Part shown: positions 12,006 through 59,089 of the stretch, one piece after another
How the letters are laid out: every line of letters begins with the position of its first letter
Numbering within the stretch: the stretch's first letter is position 1
Assembly: GCA_040757595.1 (NCBI GenBank)
Contig: JBFLWP010000020.1
Location: 1-59,089 of the forward strand
Length of the DNA: 59,089 nucleotides
Reading direction: 5' to 3'
Origin: Nitrospirota bacterium
Lineage (GTDB): Bacteria; Nitrospirota; Nitrospiria; Nitrospirales; Nitrospiraceae
The notes under the pieces: generated by a model
What the model saw: the letters and a program-made list of their open reading frames with translations, nothing else
What the model was told of the DNA's origin: nothing
Database searches by the model: none
Position numbers and translations under genes: made by a program

Positions 12006-12037
12006 GACATGTTGGGCGAGAACGCGACGTTACCGAT

Positions 12038-15000
12038 ATGAAACTCTGGAGTCGGCTCCCCAGTCTCCAGCATAAGATCATCACGGCCATCGTGATGGTC
12101 GGCCTCCTGCCCCTGACCCTTTCCCTGGTCATCACCTACATCGAGGAACGCCGGGCTCTGCAGGACACGATCGGCGCCAACTTCCGCGAGATCGCCGTGG
12201 AGGCGGCCCGTCGGGTCGAGATGCAGCTCACCCGCGGGCTCAACGAAGCCCAGCAACTGGCCGCCACGCCCTTCCTCCGCACCGCGGTCACGGAAGCGAA
12301 CCGGAGCTACGTCGGCAAGGGGGAGGCCAGCATCGAGTCCATGATCAAGGACTGGCAGCAGCGCTGGCGGGTACGGGAGCATCGGAGCGAATTTCCTTTC
12401 TTCATCAACCGGATCGTCACCAACTACCTGATCCGGTGGCACGACATCCGACGGTCCGACTACGTGGGCATCTTCGTGACCGACGACCGGGGAGCCCTGG
12501 TCGTCAGCTCGATTCCCCAGGTGGAATATTATTACGGCAAGAGTGTCTGGTGGCAGGCGGTCTTTAACGGCGGGAAAGGGCAGATCTACGTCGGCGACAT
12601 CTATTTCGATCCTTCCTTCGGCACGCACGTCCTGAACGTCTCGGTTCCGATCCTGGACGAGGAACAACGGACGGCGATTGGGGCCGTCACGATCCTGCTG
12701 CGGCGCGACACGCTCTTCCGCTCGATCTCGGAGGTCGCGGTTGGAGCCACCGGGCACGCCATGTTGATGAGCTCGGACGGCACGCCACTGATCTGCCCGG
12801 TCCTGTCGCCGGAAGAACATTCCGTGACGTCCGCCCTGATGGACCAGGTCGTGCGCCAGGAGGCCGGCTGGGTCGTGGCCTTGGACGATTCCCACGGCGG
12901 CCGGAACTCGATCGTCGGGTTCGCTCCGATCCGCCTCAGCGACGACCTGGCTCCGGGCAGCCTGGACGGGAAGCGGTGGTTGACCCTGGTCCGGCAGAAC
13001 CCGGAGGAGACCTACGCCCCGCTGAGACAGTTGCTGGCCAAAGTCGTCGCTTACGGGGTCGTCGTCTTCGCCGTTCTCCTGGGAACCGGCGCGCTGGTCT
13101 CCAGACGGATCGTCAGGCCGGTCCTGGCACTCCAGGAGGGCGTGCAGCGGATCGGGAGCGGGAGCCTCGACCACCGGTTGACGCTCAGGACCGGCGACGA
13201 GGTCGAACAGTTGGCCGAGGCGTTCAACCGCATGGCGGTCAACCTGAGGCAATCCTTCGGGCAGCTCGAACAGCGGATGTCGGACATCCGCCGGTTGGAG
13301 GAGAAATACCGGGATCTGGTCGAGAACTCGCCGGAGATGATCCACCAGATCGACAAGGCGGGCCGGTTCGTTCACGTCAACAAGACCGAGTTGGAGAAAC
13401 TCGGCTACACCCTCGACGAAATGATGGAGATGCATCTCTGGGACATCGTGCCTAGGGGGAGGGAGCCCGAGATCCTGACGTATCTGGAGCGGTTGATGTC
13501 GGAGGGGCGAAGCACGATCGAAACGGTCTTCCTGACTCGGGACGGCCGGCCGATCGACGTGGAGATCCACTCGACCGCGCTGTTCGACACGGAGAGCGGG
13601 GGGCTGGTCTACTCGCGGGCCTTCGTGCGCGACGTCACGCAACGCAAGGTCCTGGAGCAGAAGCTGCAGCGCTACACGATCCAGCTCGAGCAGGATGTCG
13701 CCGATCGGACCCAGCAGCTGTCCCATTCCCAGAGGCGGTACAAGGCCCTCTTCGACCTGGCGGCGGACTCGGTGCTCATGGTTGCGCCGGACGGCTCCGT
13801 CACCGCGGTCAACAAGCGGGAGGAGCGGGTCCTCGGTTATGCTGAACCGGAGATCGTGGGGCAGAAGTTCCTGAACCTGGTGCCGTCCTGGCATCAGGCG
13901 GCCACGGCCGGGTTGCTGCAGCAGATCGTTCAGGGCGCGCAACAGGTCCCCACCCAGGAGATCGAGGTGGTCAGCCGTTCGGGAAAATCCCTGCCGGTCG
14001 AGATGGACCTGATCCGGATCGAAGAGGGTGCGTCCATGTCCGTGATGGTGCAGCTCAGGGACATCACGGAGCGCAAGCGTCTGGAGCAGCAACTGCAGGA
14101 ATACAGCGAGGCGCTGGAAGTCAAGGTGCGGGAGCGGACCAGGGAGATCGAGGAGACCAAGACTTATCTGGAAAACCTCCTGGAGAACGCCAACGACGTC
14201 ATTTACACGCTGGACACGGAGCAGCGGTTCACCTACGTCAACAGCAAGGTGGAGGCCTGGGGCTACCACAAGGAGGACCTGATCGGCCGGCCCTACCTGT
14301 CGCTCCTGTCCAAGCGACACCGGGGCCGCCGGCTCAAGAGTTCGCTCGACATCGGGACCAAGCAGGTCTACGAGGTCGAGGTCGTGAGGCGGACGGGCGA
14401 GCCGCGGGCCGTCATGGTCAGCGTGTCCCCGTTGCGGGATGCGGAAGGGCACATTCAGGGCATCCTCGGGATCGCCCGCGACATCACGGAGACGAAAAAA
14501 CTGGAGCAGCAGATCCGGAACACGGAGAAACTGGCGTCCGTCGGCAAACTGGCCGCCGGCGTCGCTCACGAGATCAACAACCCGCTGGGCGGCATCCTGA
14601 ACTGCCTCTACAACCTGCGCCGGGGCACCCTGTCGCCGGCGCGTCAGGAGGAGTACCTGGTTTCCATGGAGGACGGGATCCGGCGCGTGCAGAAAATCGT
14701 GCGGCAATTGCTGGACTTCTCCCAGCAGCACGACCCCGAACTTTCCGCCACCGACATCAACGCGGTGGTGGAGCGGGTCTTGGTGCTGACGAATCACGCG
14801 CTGGTCGCCAGCCAGATCCGCCTGGAGAAGCACCTGCAGCCGGGCCTGCCGCCCCTCCTGGTCGACCGGCACATGATGGAACAGGTGCTGATGAACCTTC
14901 TCCTGAACGCGATCCAATCCATCAGGGCCGGCGGGGTGATCACGATCCGGACGAAGCTGGCGGACGAAGCCTGCCTCATCGAGGTGCAGGACACCGGCTG

Positions 15001-47657: not shown

Positions 47658-48929
47658 ATGCGACGGTCCTGGAAGCTCGTGCTGGGTTTGGCCGTGACGT
47701 CCGGCCTCGTGTATCTCTACTACACGGAAGTCAAGCCGGTCGTGATCTTCGGGCTCCGGTCTGACTATGCCAGGGCGATCCCCTACCAGAAGGTGCCGGA
47801 GGGAATCGAAAGTCTGCGGGCCGAATCTTGCGGAGCCTGCCACCGGGAGATCTACGAAGAGTGGAAAACCAGCGTCCATGCCCGCGCCTTCGAGGACCCG
47901 TTCTTCCAGGCCTATTGGAAGAAGGACCGGAACATCTGGGTCTGCCTGAACTGCCATGCCCCGCTCGAGAACCAGCAGCCCATCGTGATCAAATCCATCC
48001 CGCGCGGGCGGGTCGAGAAGGCGGTGCAGGAGCCCAACCCCCACTATGATCCGGCCTATCAGAAGGAGGCCGTCACCTGCGCCGCCTGCCACGTCCGGGA
48101 CGGGGTCGTCCTGGGCCCCTTCGACGACTCCGCGGCGCCTCATCCGACCGGGTTCGATCCGGCCTTCCGCACCACCCAGGTCTGCTACCGCTGCCATAAT
48201 GTCGTGTCCGGTCCGGCCCAGTTCTACAACGTGGGGCCTTGCGGGACCTACGCGGAGTACGAAGGCAAGTTCTTCATGAAGGAGAAGGGGTTCATCTGCC
48301 AGAGCTGCCACATGCCCGAAGTGGAGCGGCCGGTGGCGGAGGGAGGCCCGATCCGGCTCGGACGCCGCCACCTCTGGCGGGGAGGCCACGACCAGGAGAT
48401 GGTCAAACAGGCGGTGGCCATCCAGGTGCAGGCCGAGCCGGCCTCGCCGAATCCGGGTGATCGGGTGGACGTGACCCTGACGCTGATCAACGCCGGCGCC
48501 GGCCACAAAATTCCGACCGGCGATCCGGACCGGCACTTCACGGTGGACTTCCTGGTGCGGGACGGTCAGGGACGGACGGTGACGCAGCAGAGCCAGACCA
48601 TGGGACGGTGGATCCTGTGGCAGCCGGTCGTCCTCGAAGTCTACGACAACCGGCTCCTGCCGCTGGCCAGCCGGGAGTACCGGTTCTCCTACCGGCTGCC
48701 GGAGACGTCCGCCGGCCTGACCTTGAAAACCCTCGTGCGCTACCATATCCTCACCGAGGAGCAGCACGAGATGCTGGAGCGGAAGTACGGGCTGACGGGG
48801 CACGATCCCTACGCCTTTACGATTTACGAACGGGATCTCCCGCTGTCGGACGAGCTGGCCGTGGCGCTGGCGCAGGAGCCGTCCGATCCGCGGCTGAGCT
48901 GCCCGGCCGGCGGCAAGAAAACGGGGTAA
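47658..48929 (+). CDS. Penta-heme cytochrome c, copy 3
   Basis: 423 aa. An N-terminal helix (residues 6-23) serves as an uncleaved anchor or signal. Heme motifs start at residues 58, 96, 141, 176 and 214: CGACH, CLNCH, CAACH, CYRCH and CQSCH, in the same order as copies 1 and 2. IYEEWKTSVHARAF follows the first heme. The C-terminal domain has AGHKIPTGDPDRH, the H-x-x-P-T-G-D-P loop. It is next to a sulfurtransferase gene (27 bp gap), which could mean a role in sulfur electron transfer, or only chance. Confidence 0.86.
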   Translation: MRRSWKLVLGLAVTSGLVYLYYTEVKPVVIFGLRSDYARAIPYQKVPEGIESLRAESCGACHREIYEEWKTSVHARAFEDPFFQAYWKKDRNIWVCLNCHAPLENQQPIVIKSIPRGRVEKAVQEPNPHYDPAYQKEAVTCAACHVRDGVVLGPFDDSAAPHPTGFDPAFRTTQVCYRCHNVVSGPAQFYNVGPCGTYAEYEGKFFMKEKGFICQSCHMPEVERPVAEGGPIRLGRRHLWRGGHDQEMVKQAVAIQVQAEPASPNPGDRVDVTLTLINAGAGHKIPTGDPDRHFTVDFLVRDGQGRTVTQQSQTMGRWILWQPVVLEVYDNRLLPLASREYRFSYRLPETSAGLTLKTLVRYHILTEEQHEMLERKYGLTGHDPYAFTIYERDLPLSDELAVALAQEPSDPRLSCPAGGKKTG

Positions 48930-48956: not shown

Positions 48957-49832
48957 ATGAACCATCCCTTTTTGATCGACACCAATACCCTGGACCAGAA
49001 CCTGGGCCGTTCGGATCTGGTCGTCATCGACGTGCGCGGCAAGGCGGCCTTCGCCTTCAGCGGCCACATTCCCGGGGCCGTGCACGCGACCTGGCACGAG
49101 TTCAGCGATCCCAACGCGGCCGCCAAGGGACTGCTGGATCCGGACGTCGGGCGGCTGGAAAAGAGGATTCAGACGCTGGGCATCAGCAACGACAACGATA
49201 TCGTCATCTACTCCAACCCATTCGACAACTGGGGCGACGAAGGGCGGATGTTCTGGATGCTCCAGTACCTGGGCCTGACCAAGCTCCGGATCCTGGACGG
49301 GGGCTGGGTCAAATGGGTCGCCGAAAAACGGCGTTACGAGTATGGACCGGCGAATCCCAAGCCCGGCACCTTCAAGGCCTCGCCCAATCCGGATCTGATC
49401 GTGCTGAAGGACGAGCTGAAGAAGCTGGTGAAACGGCCCCATCCGGAGGCCGTCATCGCGGACGCCCGCAGCCTGGAGGAGTATGCGGGCAAGGAGATGC
49501 AGGGCATCCCGCGGCCCGGGCACATTCCTTCGGCCGTCAGCGTGCCGTGGAACGTGTTCCTGAACGCCGACGCGACGGTCAAGGACCTGGACGTCCTCCG
49601 GGCCGGCCTGGAGGAGAAGGGGCTGGACCCCGGCAAGGAGGTCATCTGCTACTGCACGGGCGGCGTCCGGTCAGCCTGGCTCTACTTCGTCCTCAAGCTG
49701 GCGGGCTATCCGAAGGTGAGGAATTATCCCGGGTCCTGGTGGGAATGGAGCCGGGACTTTGCCGCACCCGTCGAATCGGATGTGAAGTTGCTGCGCAAGA
49801 TCGTCGGACACGACGAGGCCAAGCCGTCTTGA
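48957..49832 (+). CDS. Thiosulfate/3-mercaptopyruvate sulfurtransferase (rhodanese)
   Basis: 291 aa with two rhodanese domains. The C-terminal domain has the active loop CYCTGGVRSAW (Cys233 as persulfide carrier). The N-terminal domain lacks a cysteine in the matching loop, as usual in tandem rhodaneses. It transfers sulfur from thiosulfate or mercaptopyruvate to cyanide or thiol acceptors in the cytoplasm; no signal peptide is seen. Confidence 0.9.
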   Translation: MNHPFLIDTNTLDQNLGRSDLVVIDVRGKAAFAFSGHIPGAVHATWHEFSDPNAAAKGLLDPDVGRLEKRIQTLGISNDNDIVIYSNPFDNWGDEGRMFWMLQYLGLTKLRILDGGWVKWVAEKRRYEYGPANPKPGTFKASPNPDLIVLKDELKKLVKRPHPEAVIADARSLEEYAGKEMQGIPRPGHIPSAVSVPWNVFLNADATVKDLDVLRAGLEEKGLDPGKEVICYCTGGVRSAWLYFVLKLAGYPKVRNYPGSWWEWSRDFAAPVESDVKLLRKIVGHDEAKPS

Positions 49833-54941: not shown

Positions 54942-57023
54942 ATGACCGGTTCGGTCTGGTCATTTTGGCACCGGCTTCGCGTGCAGCAGAAGGTGACGGT
55001 GATCCTCCTGACCGTTTTCTTCCCCCTGCTGGGCGCGATCGCGCTCCAGACCGTCTCGGCCGGCCGCGCGTTGACCCTGCACGAGCAAGTACGGCAACTG
55101 CTTCTCGCGCGTGAGCAAGTGCAGGTTCTGCGACGACTCGCCGTGGACATCGAAGATGCGTTCCGCGGCTATTTGCTCACCAGGCAGGAAGCGTTCCTGG
55201 GCCCGATGCAGGAAGCCGAGCCCAAGCTTCAATCCACCATCGGCAGCATCAACGCGTTGGCGGAAGGCGTCCCCGAGCTCCGCGAGGATATCCGACGCGT
55301 CAGCGAGGGGCTTGACTCGCTCCTCGAGTCGAAGCACCAGCTCATCCGACGCGTCCATGCCGGGCATTTCGACGAAGTCATCACGTACGTGCGCTCCGGC
55401 AAAGGTCTCGCCCTTTCCCAGGCGGTTCGGAACGAGTTCCGTTCGATCGAGGACGGGCTGGAGAGCCAGCTCCGACGCCTGGAAATTCGGCAGGCGACTC
55501 TGGCGCGCGACACGTTCTGGGGCTTGCTGTTGGTGGTGCTGGGGGGCGCGGCGCTCGGGCTGGTCGGAGCGCGGCTGCTGACCCGCTCGATCACCAAGCC
55601 CATCTCGCTGCTGCAATCCTCGGTGGTCTCGCTGGGGGAACGGGTCGAATTGGACCAAGAGCCGGAGCCGATCTCCATCCGTTCCACCGACGAGATCGGG
55701 CAGCTGGCTCGATCCTTCGAAGAGATGGCTCAGCGCGTCCGCGCGCACCTCCGCGAGTTGGAAACCATCAACGCCATTGGGCACGAGATCAACATGATCG
55801 GCGCCGACGGATTGGCTGGAGTGCTCGGGCGGATCACCGACCGTGCGTCCGAGTTGCTCCAGGCGGACGTCTGTCTGGTGATGTTGCGCGACAGCGAAAT
55901 GGGGTGCTGGGTGGTCGAGGCGGCGTCGGGTGAGTGGAACGATCGGCTGCACAAGTCGGTCATGTTGTGGGAAGAGTTCCCGATCTCGGTGCAGGCTTTT
56001 GAGACTAGGCAGCCTGCTTTTGGCGAAGATTTGCAGGCCGACGCACGGCCGGAGGTCGTCCGGCGCAACCTCATCGGTCAGAGCATGTTGTCGGTTCCGC
56101 TCCTGTCGCGGGGCGAGCCGTTCGGCGTGCTGGTGCTGCTCCAAAATCGTCCGATGCGTCGGGAGGCTTGGAACCTCCGGCTGGCGGAGGGGTTCGCCGA
56201 AGAGGCCGCCGTCGCCATCGTCAACGTCCGCCTCTACGAGGCGGTGCATCAGCAACGGAAGGGGCTCGAGTCACGCCTCAGACAGTTGGAGCACATGGCC
56301 GAGATGCTGGCGCACGACCTCAAAGGGCCGGGCGAACGGATGGAACGGCTGGCCGGCCTCATCAGATCGAAATACAGCGAGCACCTCGATGCGCGCGCCC
56401 AGCGATGGCTGCAGCTCGTGGAGGAAGACGGCAAGGAGCTGATTGCGCGTGTGGAAAATCTCCTGGCGGTGGCTCGCGTCGGCGCGCGGAAGGAGCCCGT
56501 CGAGGCGGTGGATCCGGGGATCGTGATCGAGGGGGTGCTCAAGGCCAGGGCCGGCGAGCTGGAGCAGAAACGCGTTCATGTAGAAATCGAGAGGGGATTC
56601 CCCCTGCTCGCCTGCCATGCGGCTTACCTCCGGCAGGTGTTTGACAACCTGATCGGCAACGCGATCAAGTTTGCCGGAGACGCTCCGCAGCCGGTGGTCC
56701 GGGTGGCCTGCGAGCGGAAGGGAGCGAAGGCGCACATCTCGGTCAGCGACAACGGTCCTGGAATCCCGCCGGCGCAGCAGGAGAAGGTGTTTCAGCCGTT
56801 CGTCCGTCTGCAGCCGGACAGGACCAGGGGGAGCGGGATCGGCCTGACCATTGTCAAGCGCATCGTCGAATGGTATGGAGGACGGGTCTGGATCGAGTCG
56901 GACGGGCGGTCTGGCTGCACGGTGACGTTTACGATCCCCATGCTAGGCGAATTCTTCGTCAAATCCCCACAGGAACGGACGTGCGGGACCGGTGAGACGA
57001 TGGGGGAGAACCGCGATGCCTGA
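54942..57023 (+). CDS. CHASE3/HAMP/GAF sensor histidine kinase
   Basis: 693 aa. Membrane helices near residues 12-34 and 188-210 bracket a CHASE3 sensor (AFRGYLLTRQEAFLGPMQEA and following helices). HAMP follows, then a GAF domain (about 290-430, with LLQADVCLVMLRDSE). The phosphoacceptor motif is MLAHDLKGP (H458). HATPase shows SDNGPGIPP and GSGIGLTIVKRIVEWYGG. The GAF domain may bind a small ligand or redox cofactor. It overlaps the sigma-54 activator by eight bases, so the two are translationally coupled. The target promoter is probably the one just downstream. Confidence 0.91.
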   Translation: MTGSVWSFWHRLRVQQKVTVILLTVFFPLLGAIALQTVSAGRALTLHEQVRQLLLAREQVQVLRRLAVDIEDAFRGYLLTRQEAFLGPMQEAEPKLQSTIGSINALAEGVPELREDIRRVSEGLDSLLESKHQLIRRVHAGHFDEVITYVRSGKGLALSQAVRNEFRSIEDGLESQLRRLEIRQATLARDTFWGLLLVVLGGAALGLVGARLLTRSITKPISLLQSSVVSLGERVELDQEPEPISIRSTDEIGQLARSFEEMAQRVRAHLRELETINAIGHEINMIGADGLAGVLGRITDRASELLQADVCLVMLRDSEMGCWVVEAASGEWNDRLHKSVMLWEEFPISVQAFETRQPAFGEDLQADARPEVVRRNLIGQSMLSVPLLSRGEPFGVLVLLQNRPMRREAWNLRLAEGFAEEAAVAIVNVRLYEAVHQQRKGLESRLRQLEHMAEMLAHDLKGPGERMERLAGLIRSKYSEHLDARAQRWLQLVEEDGKELIARVENLLAVARVGARKEPVEAVDPGIVIEGVLKARAGELEQKRVHVEIERGFPLLACHAAYLRQVFDNLIGNAIKFAGDAPQPVVRVACERKGAKAHISVSDNGPGIPPAQQEKVFQPFVRLQPDRTRGSGIGLTIVKRIVEWYGGRVWIESDGRSGCTVTFTIPMLGEFFVKSPQERTCGTGETMGENRDA

Positions 57024-58458
57024 CCAGGCACTGGACTCCGTCACCAGTCGCCAAAAGGCGAAGACGTTTACGATCTTGCTCGTCGAGGACAGCGCCTCGG
57101 ACACGGAATTGCTGCTGAACGCGATCGAGGAGGCCGATCTGAAGGCTATCAAGGGCGACATTGACTTCGAGGTGCGGTCGAGCGCCGAGGGAGCCCTACA
57201 GGCCTTGGCCGAGCGGCCGATCGATCTGGTCCTGACCGACATGATGCTGCCCGGGATAGACGGGCTGGACCTGGTCGCCAAGATTCAGGAGATCGACCGC
57301 AACTTGCCGGTCTTGGTCGTGACCCGCGTCAACGAAGTGCCGGCCGCTGTGGATGCGCTCCGACGCGGGGCGTACGATTACGTCTTGAAGCCGGTCAACC
57401 CCGATGACCTGGGTATGCGCCTGCACCGGGCCATCCGGATCTCGGAAATCCTTCGCCGCAATACCCTCTACGAGCGGGTGATGCAGCAGGAGTTGACCGA
57501 AAATGGATTGGTCGGGGTGAGCGAGGCCCATCGGCAAATCTTGAGCCGGGTGCGGGAGGCCGTGCAGGGCCGCGCCCCGGTGCTGATCGTCGGAGAGACA
57601 GGCACCGGGAAAGGGCTGATCGCCCGGATGATCCACGCCGAGAGCGAGGAACGGGACAAGCCGTACCAGGTGATTGATTGCACGACGTTACCGGAAGGAA
57701 TGGCGGAGAGCGAGCTGTTCGGGCACGTGCGCGGAGCCTTCACCGGCGCGATCGCGGACAAGCCGGGGCTCATCGAATTGGCCAACGGAGGCACGGCTTT
57801 CCTGGACGAAATCGGGGATTTGCCGCTGCCCTTGCAGGCCAAGCTGTTGCGGGTCCTGGAGGACAACGAGGTGCGCCCGGTCGGAGGGACCAGGATCAAG
57901 CGGGTGGACATGCGGTTCATTGCGGCGACCAATCAGGACCTCGAAGAGAAGATCAAGACCGGCGCGTTCCGCAAGGACCTCTTCTACCGGCTCGCGGGCA
58001 TCGTGATTCGGGTCCCGCCGCTGCGGGAGCGTCCCGAAGATATCCCGGTCATTGCCCGCCATCTCGTGGGCCAATTCGGACGGGAATTGGGGAAGCCCGA
58101 CTGCGCGCTGGAACCAGCCGCCTTGACGGAGCTCTCCACCTATTCCTGGCCTGGCAACGTCCGCGAGCTGCGCAACGTCGTCGAACGAGCCGTGATGCTG
58201 GCGTCTGGAGATCGAATTGGCCGCTCCGATGTCAAGGTTCTCCTTCCTGAGTCCAGGAAGGCCCAGAGCGCAATGGATTTTTCGGGTTACGTCTCGGACA
58301 CCTATGAGCAGGGGAGGAAGAAGATCCTGGCCGAGTTCACCAACGCCTTCCTGAAAGCCAAGCTGGCGCTATACGCCGGCAACGTGGGCAAGGCGGCTGA
58401 GCATAGCGGGATGACCCGCCAGCACTTCTCCTTCCTGATGAAGCGGTTTCTCGACTGA
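57016..58458 (+). CDS. Sigma-54-dependent response regulator
   Basis: 480 aa from ATG 57016, preceded by GGGGGAG; a longer frame begins at 56992. Receiver D75 in VLTDMMLPG. The AAA+ domain has GETGTGKG (Walker A, normally GESGTGKE), GAFTGA, TAFLDEIGDLPLP and PPLRERPED. The C-terminal helix-turn-helix is GNVGKAAEHSGMTRQHFSFLM, Fis type. It binds enhancer sites and drives sigma-54 RNA polymerase open-complex formation. It directly precedes a promoter of that type and is the obvious activator. Confidence 0.93.
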   Translation: MPDQALDSVTSRQKAKTFTILLVEDSASDTELLLNAIEEADLKAIKGDIDFEVRSSAEGALQALAERPIDLVLTDMMLPGIDGLDLVAKIQEIDRNLPVLVVTRVNEVPAAVDALRRGAYDYVLKPVNPDDLGMRLHRAIRISEILRRNTLYERVMQQELTENGLVGVSEAHRQILSRVREAVQGRAPVLIVGETGTGKGLIARMIHAESEERDKPYQVIDCTTLPEGMAESELFGHVRGAFTGAIADKPGLIELANGGTAFLDEIGDLPLPLQAKLLRVLEDNEVRPVGGTRIKRVDMRFIAATNQDLEEKIKTGAFRKDLFYRLAGIVIRVPPLRERPEDIPVIARHLVGQFGRELGKPDCALEPAALTELSTYSWPGNVRELRNVVERAVMLASGDRIGRSDVKVLLPESRKAQSAMDFSGYVSDTYEQGRKKILAEFTNAFLKAKLALYAGNVGKAAEHSGMTRQHFSFLMKRFLD

Positions 58459-58567
58459 CTGAGCCGCAGAAGAGCAGCCTCCGCTGACGGTTTCACTTCG
58501 GTAACGCTTCTCTATCCCCTTACTGATCCAGCTCCAGCCATTTCCTTTCCCGACTCTCTCGAAGGTT

Positions 58568-58592
58568 TCGACCTGGTAACCCAAAAGGTCGA
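58568..58592. promoter_or_regulatory. Inverted repeat TCGACCT-N11-AGGTCGA
   Basis: Perfect 7-base arms at 58568-58574 and 58586-58592, about 300 bases upstream of the -12 element. It could be an operator or an upstream activator site, or part of an attenuator after the regulator gene. Confidence 0.4.
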
Positions 58593-58756
58593 TGCGGCGC
58601 TTCCGGCCCCAGGTTTCCTCGCTTTTCGTCGTAATTCCTTTGCGTCACGCCCTGAATATGACAGGAAAGAAGAATTCTGCAGAGGTTCTAACATGGCGAA
58701 TTGCCTGACGACTTTCAATTTGATCCAGCCTGGAGCGAAGACATTCCCTTACCCGA

Positions 58757-58801
58757 ATCGATCCGCGACTTTACAGACCAGTAACGTCCCATTGGATCGA
58801 T
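58757..58801. promoter_or_regulatory. Candidate enhancer for the sigma-54 activator
   Basis: ATCGATCC (58757-58764) and GGATCGAT (58794-58801) are perfect inverted arms with a 29-base spacer, centred about 37 bases apart. They lie roughly 90-135 bases before the predicted start, the usual distance for NtrC-type enhancer sites. The two arms could each bind one dimer. Confidence 0.5.
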
Positions 58802-58865
58802 CGAAAATCATAAGTTTTATCAACGTCTTGCGTTGACTCTCGCCGGCAACTCCTCCGGCCGCTCC

Positions 58866-58881
58866 TGGCAATGGTCTTGCT
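58866..58881 (+). promoter_or_regulatory. Sigma-54 promoter (-24/-12)
   Basis: TGGCAATGGTCTTGCT has the GG of the -24 and the GC of the -12 elements at the exact consensus spacing (TGGCA-N6-TTGCW). It starts 130 bases before the ATG at 58996, leaving a leader of about 100 bases. It is directly downstream of a sigma-54 activator gene. Confidence 0.85.
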
Positions 58882-58995
58882 CAACTGCTGTGAGGGCAGC
58901 GTGTGTGCTGATGCGTGCTGAAGGGGGGTGGTAGTCAGACAAGTTCGGACAGTGAGATGGCAGACTCGGAGAACTTCATTCAGGAGGTGTAGACG

Positions 58996-59089
58996 ATGTT
59001 CTTATCACGACGGCAATTCTTGAAAGTCTCGGCTGGCACGGTCGCGGCCGCGGCGATCGCCGACAAGGCCCTCGCCCTCACGGCCCTGC
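58996..59089 (+). CDS. Tat-signal protein, truncated at window end (possible NxrA-type catalytic subunit)
   Basis: Only 31 codons lie in the window. AGGAGGT sits seven bases before ATG 58996. The sequence SRRQFLK followed by an alanine-rich hydrophobic stretch (AGTVAAAAIADKALALTAL) is a clear twin-arginine signal peptide. Sigma-54 control, nearby TorD, MobA, TatA and NxrC-like genes and the style of the signal peptide suggest a periplasmic molybdoenzyme such as nitrite oxidoreductase alpha (NxrA), but formate dehydrogenase or another Tat substrate is equally possible from these residues alone. Confidence 0.72.
   Translation, partial: MFLSRRQFLKVSAGTVAAAAIADKALALTAL

Follow-up and report, generated by a model that had tools for sequence, protein, structure and literature searches.

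A conserved sigma-54 promoter element and a putative two-component switch upstream of one of several nxrA copies in a Nitrospiraceae genome

How is transcription controlled at a gene that begins behind a two-component kinase and regulator, carries a Tat signal peptide, and is cut off by the end of its contig? The window analysed here is the whole of that contig (C20, 59,089 bp), one of 36 in the 3.37-Mb source genome, and its main features are collected in Table 1. The reading that we favor, with a probability of about 0.85, is that an enhancer-dependent sigma-54 promoter drives this nxrA copy, the genome having at least four, with the adjacent two-component pair activating it via upstream dyads.

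Table 1. Coordinates of the kinase, regulator, promoter-region and nxrA features in the window.
Feature	Position	Strand	Basis
Sensor histidine kinase, 693 aa: CHASE3 (48–178), HAMP, GAF, HATPase; H-box LAHDLKGPGERMER	54942..57023	+	Pfam matches above cut-off
Response regulator of NtrC type (480 aa) with receiver, GAFTGA-bearing AAA+ domain and putative Fis-like HTH at the C-terminus	57016..58458	+	Pfam, motifs
Dyad U1a, GTTTCACTTCGGTAAC; probable site for an activator upstream of the promoter (inferred function)	58490..58505	+	Sequence
Dyad U1b, GTTTCGACCTGGTAAC; other half of the pair (inferred function)	58565..58580	+	Sequence
Sigma-54 -24/-12 element TGGCA-N6-TTGCT, TGGCAATGGTCTTGCT	58866..58881	+	Sequence pattern, conservation
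Shine-Dalgarno AGGAGGT	58982..58988	+	Sequence
nxrA 5' end (about 31 codons) with Tat signal peptide, truncated at the contig end	58996..59089	+	Same 5' end on contigs C24, C29, C13

The reading frame that opens at ATG 58996, with AGGAGGT ahead of it, begins MFLSRRQFLK. The final bases of the window are repeated at the ends of three more contigs of the genome (C24, C29, and C13; 89–96% DNA identity), and the contig likely stops here because nxrA is present in multiple copies. The C13 and C29 copies extend 330 residues and are 98% identical to each other. Across all of these available residues the C13 copy matches Kuenenia NxrA (PDB 7b04, E = 2.7e-142), with members of the nitrate reductase and DMSO reductase families trailing far behind; with this match, formate dehydrogenase or another Tat molybdoenzyme was dropped as a candidate for the target. 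Judged by an N-terminus identical to that of the longer copies, the truncated gene is nxrA, as an earlier note on this DNA had guessed, and nitrite-oxidising activity is predicted for the encoded enzyme from homology. That note had also pointed out a twin-arginine signal and proposed a search for a molybdopterin oxidoreductase domain; in the C13 paralog both TAT_signal and Molybdop_Fe4S4 lie above the Pfam cut-off.

Directly upstream, the kinase and regulator genes overlap by 8 bp. Pfam HisKA has no match in the window kinase; its H-box is kept in the related kinases of class A loci (defined below). The regulator has the receiver, the sigma-54 AAA+ domain with GAFTGA, and the phospho-acceptor Asp (motif LVLTDMMLP) of an NtrC-type activator, and GAFTGA was found in every nxrA-adjacent regulator examined. 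The putative Fis-like HTH is matched weakly by HTH_8 (E = 0.072, below the Pfam cut-off), a point against the favored reading. NtrC proper was considered for this protein and rejected, with a TIGR01818 score of 355.6 against a cut-off of 558.6 bits. Each of the four nxrA copies follows one of the genome's four regulators most similar to that of the window, itself included (own 100%, C24 70%, C29 68%, and C13 53% identity), and the next paralog is only 43% identical. Farther upstream in the window, a gene for a multihaem-cytochrome-like protein (47658–48929) adjoins one for a rhodanese (48957–49832).

The exact pattern TGGCA-N6-TTGCT has one match in the whole window, on the plus strand, where a spacing of ten bases separates GG from GC within TGGCA-N6-TTGC. 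The near-consensus sigma-54 element of the earlier note is thus an exact one, lying between the Tat-signal frame and a two-component activator whose CHASE3/GAF kinase and NtrC-family assignments hold up by Pfam domains and GAFTGA. When the 537-bp gap between regulator and nxrA was shuffled 20,000 times, TGGCA-N6-TTGC[A/T] arose 21 times. Genome-wide, the exact pattern occurs 19 times vs 2 for a reversed control pattern, and the sigma-54 consensus is therefore enriched in this genome; some of these other matches sit within open frames, and others precede, for example, ammonium-transporter-like and sigma-54-regulator-like ORFs (names judged by eye). The source genome encodes one rpoN (a single Sigma54_DBD match in a profile search, E = 3.6e-60), and the gene was found in 162 of 172 genomes of the family Nitrospiraceae. 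Transcripts from sigma-54 promoters start about 12 nt past the -12 GC, and by this geometry the nxrA transcript would be expected to start near 58891–58893. Neither a sigma-70-like promoter nor a terminator-like site was found in 58440–59089.

The element is conserved well beyond this genome. We searched 175 family genomes, among which the source genome is the sole member of its genus, and sorted nxrA upstream regions by the class of the adjacent regulator, class A being at least 57% identical to that of the window and class B about 50% identical, the latter including C13 of the source genome. All 11 class A loci of the first set carry TGGCA-N6-TTGCT 120–144 bp before the aligned NxrA frame (each shuffle p ≤ 0.01). 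Among test loci that were fetched afterwards and located by regulator homology only, TGGCA-N6-TTGC[T/A] is present in 21/22 of class A, 345–408 bp past the regulator stop, vs 0/18 of class B. The single class A exception, L168, is a 627-bp stretch with a poor regulator-end match. The TGGCA and TTGC columns are invariant in all 31 loci of a class A set that leaves out L168 and one near-duplicate, while the N6 spacer varies; the order of the components is conserved as well.

Two kinds of dyad accompany the element. U1, a 16-bp dyad of the form GTTTC-N6-GTRAC, lies about 280–375 bp ahead of the -24 element in most class A loci, with at least one copy present in 26/31 loci and two in 16/31; the scoring matrix derives from sites chosen in the first loci, which makes the scores obtained there partly circular. 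Independent checks come from the test loci and from the whole-genome pattern: all three occurrences of the U1 pair in 3.37 Mb precede a class A nxrA, and the control gave 0. Judged on sequence alone, the window pair has the character of the upstream dyad activator sites of sigma-54 promoters and is likely the enhancer of the nxrA promoter. U1-type dyads have three matches in the window vs 0.07 expected; the third (GTTTCATATCGGTAAC, minus strand, 12029–12044) overlaps the start (12038) of a gene for a 1059-aa sensor kinase. The other kind, M2, is a pair of GCATA-N6-TATGC dyads about 134 and 201 bp upstream, with at least one copy in 30/31 class A loci. The sole class A locus without it is that of the window, where region 58459–58865 has no M2 dyad (best score -3.5 vs 8.3 for the 95% null). 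Because this dyad is absent, regulation of the window nxrA copy may differ from that of its C24 and C29 sisters.

An initial impression from weak matrix scores, that class B and neighbourless nxrA copies (those with no adjacent regulator) lack the element, was corrected when direct pattern counts revealed variant elements. GGCA-N6-TTGTA is present in 13/14 of the first class B loci and 18/18 of the class B test loci, many class B loci coming from one genus and hence not being independent; GTCA-N8-TGAC dyads are found in all 18 test loci. We call GGCA-N6-TTGTA a sigma-54-like variant, and a candidate promoter, because TTGTA alters one base of the usual GC dinucleotide. At the phospho-acceptor position, six class B loci have Glu or Gly, and no kinase adjoins any of these; the residue is Asp in the four loci that do have an adjacent kinase and in four that do not. 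Some class B regulators, having lost both kinase and phospho-acceptor, may be always on. One of the six is the C13 regulator (L007 7071–8528), whose motif reads LVITEIRLP, with Glu where the phospho-acceptor Asp would be, and which has no adjacent kinase. A third regulator type, NifA-like by its C-terminus and without a receiver motif, precedes some nxrA genes (L085, L087, L089, and L126), and these loci have TGGCA-N6-[ACG]TGCA about 247 bp before nxrA.

Neighbourless nxrA regions number 61, of which 48 are mutually dissimilar. TGG-N8-TTGC lies 60–350 bp before the gene in 38/48 (shuffle mean 1.0, maximum 5) and a single U1-like dyad, G[TC]TAC-N6-GTA[AG]C, farther upstream in 30/48 (shuffle mean 0.02), counts that are inflated by shared ancestry. 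Spacers of 6, 7, 9, and 10 gave 0–2 matches, the chance level, a control that speaks only to the specificity of the 8-base spacing. These patterns suggest that sigma-54 controls nxrA in general, with an activator acting in trans where no regulator adjoins the gene.

Could the window element be a chance match with no function? Exact copies within open frames elsewhere in the genome would fit such a view, to which we give almost no credence: position and sequence are kept in 31/31 class A loci and absent from all 18 class B test loci, and the conservation test thus contradicts it. It is also improbable, in our judgement, that nxrA is read chiefly from another promoter served by a housekeeping sigma factor, with the -24/-12 element minor or a relic. 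Sigma-54 regulators of this kind are low in expression in N. moscoviensis under steady nitrite, where a different regulator, close to the nxrAB with the strongest expression, is highly expressed (PMC6606698), which lends this view some weight; the gap before nxrA, however, contains no sigma-70-like site, and the element is invariant across class A while its spacer drifts. The low expression in N. moscoviensis may mean that the window promoter is used only under some conditions.

A rival that we hold to be rather unlikely accepts the sigma-54 promoter as genuine and assigns its main activation to a factor acting in trans on U1, with the adjacent pair binding elsewhere or only modulating. U1-like dyads do stand upstream of so many of the dissimilar neighbourless nxrA genes that another factor may bind U1, and the GCATA dyads of nearly all class A regions could be the site of the adjacent regulator. 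Against this, the window copy lacks the GCATA dyads and yet keeps its adjacent regulator, and in the source genome the U1 pair is found only before the three nxrA genes of class A.

We retain local activation, probably through U1, as the preferred reading, under which the following sequence of events is envisaged. Sigma-54 RNA polymerase would wait in closed form at 58866–58881 until the adjacent kinase senses a signal and phosphorylates the adjacent regulator. The phosphorylated regulator would bind upstream dyads, for which 58490–58505 and 58565–58580 are the best candidates; the DNA would loop, the GAFTGA AAA+ ATPase of the regulator would melt the promoter, and nxrA would be transcribed from about 58892.

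Across the family, we consider it slightly better than an even bet that nxrA obeys a regulator-matched sigma-54 code. In such a code, TGGCA-N6-TTGCT together with U1 and GCATA dyads would belong to regulators of class A, and GGCA-N6-TTGTA together with GTCA-N8-TGAC to those of class B, while neighbourless copies, driven in trans, would have TGG-N8-TTGC and one U1-like dyad. If this is true, NXR paralogs within a single cell would respond to different signals, which bears on why Nitrospira keep several near-identical NXR copies and how these are switched. The analysis places the promoter and its likely enhancer at exact coordinates, assigns a candidate regulator to every copy, and yields a testable prediction of which copies are driven by sigma-54 and of the site that each regulator serves.

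At glnA and related NtrB/NtrC systems, a kinase and a receiver-AAA+-HTH activator act with distal dyads and a -24/-12 promoter. The same layout is found here, with a putative HTH; unlike NtrC at glnA, the window regulator scores below the NtrC cut-off, its dyads differ from the NtrC site, and the target is nxrA. The target enzyme belongs to the same family as Kuenenia stuttgartiensis NxrA, to judge by the full-length match of the C13 fragment to 7b04. Sigma-54-dependent regulators beside nxrAB have been reported in N. moscoviensis, N. defluvii, N. japonica, and strain KM1, and differential regulation was suggested (PMC6606698, PMC7522533). The word 'promoter' is absent from the main text of these two papers and of PMC5767232, and a search of the literature by title and abstract found no description of an nxr promoter or enhancer, though Lucker 2010 or Koch 2015 may hold a prior account. 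The published Nitrospira loci resemble ours in having a sigma-54 regulator next to nxrA and several nxrAB copies with differing regulators; PMC6606698 and PMC7522533 present them without promoter or enhancer sequences, whereas here the promoter elements and candidate enhancers are mapped and matched to the class of regulator.
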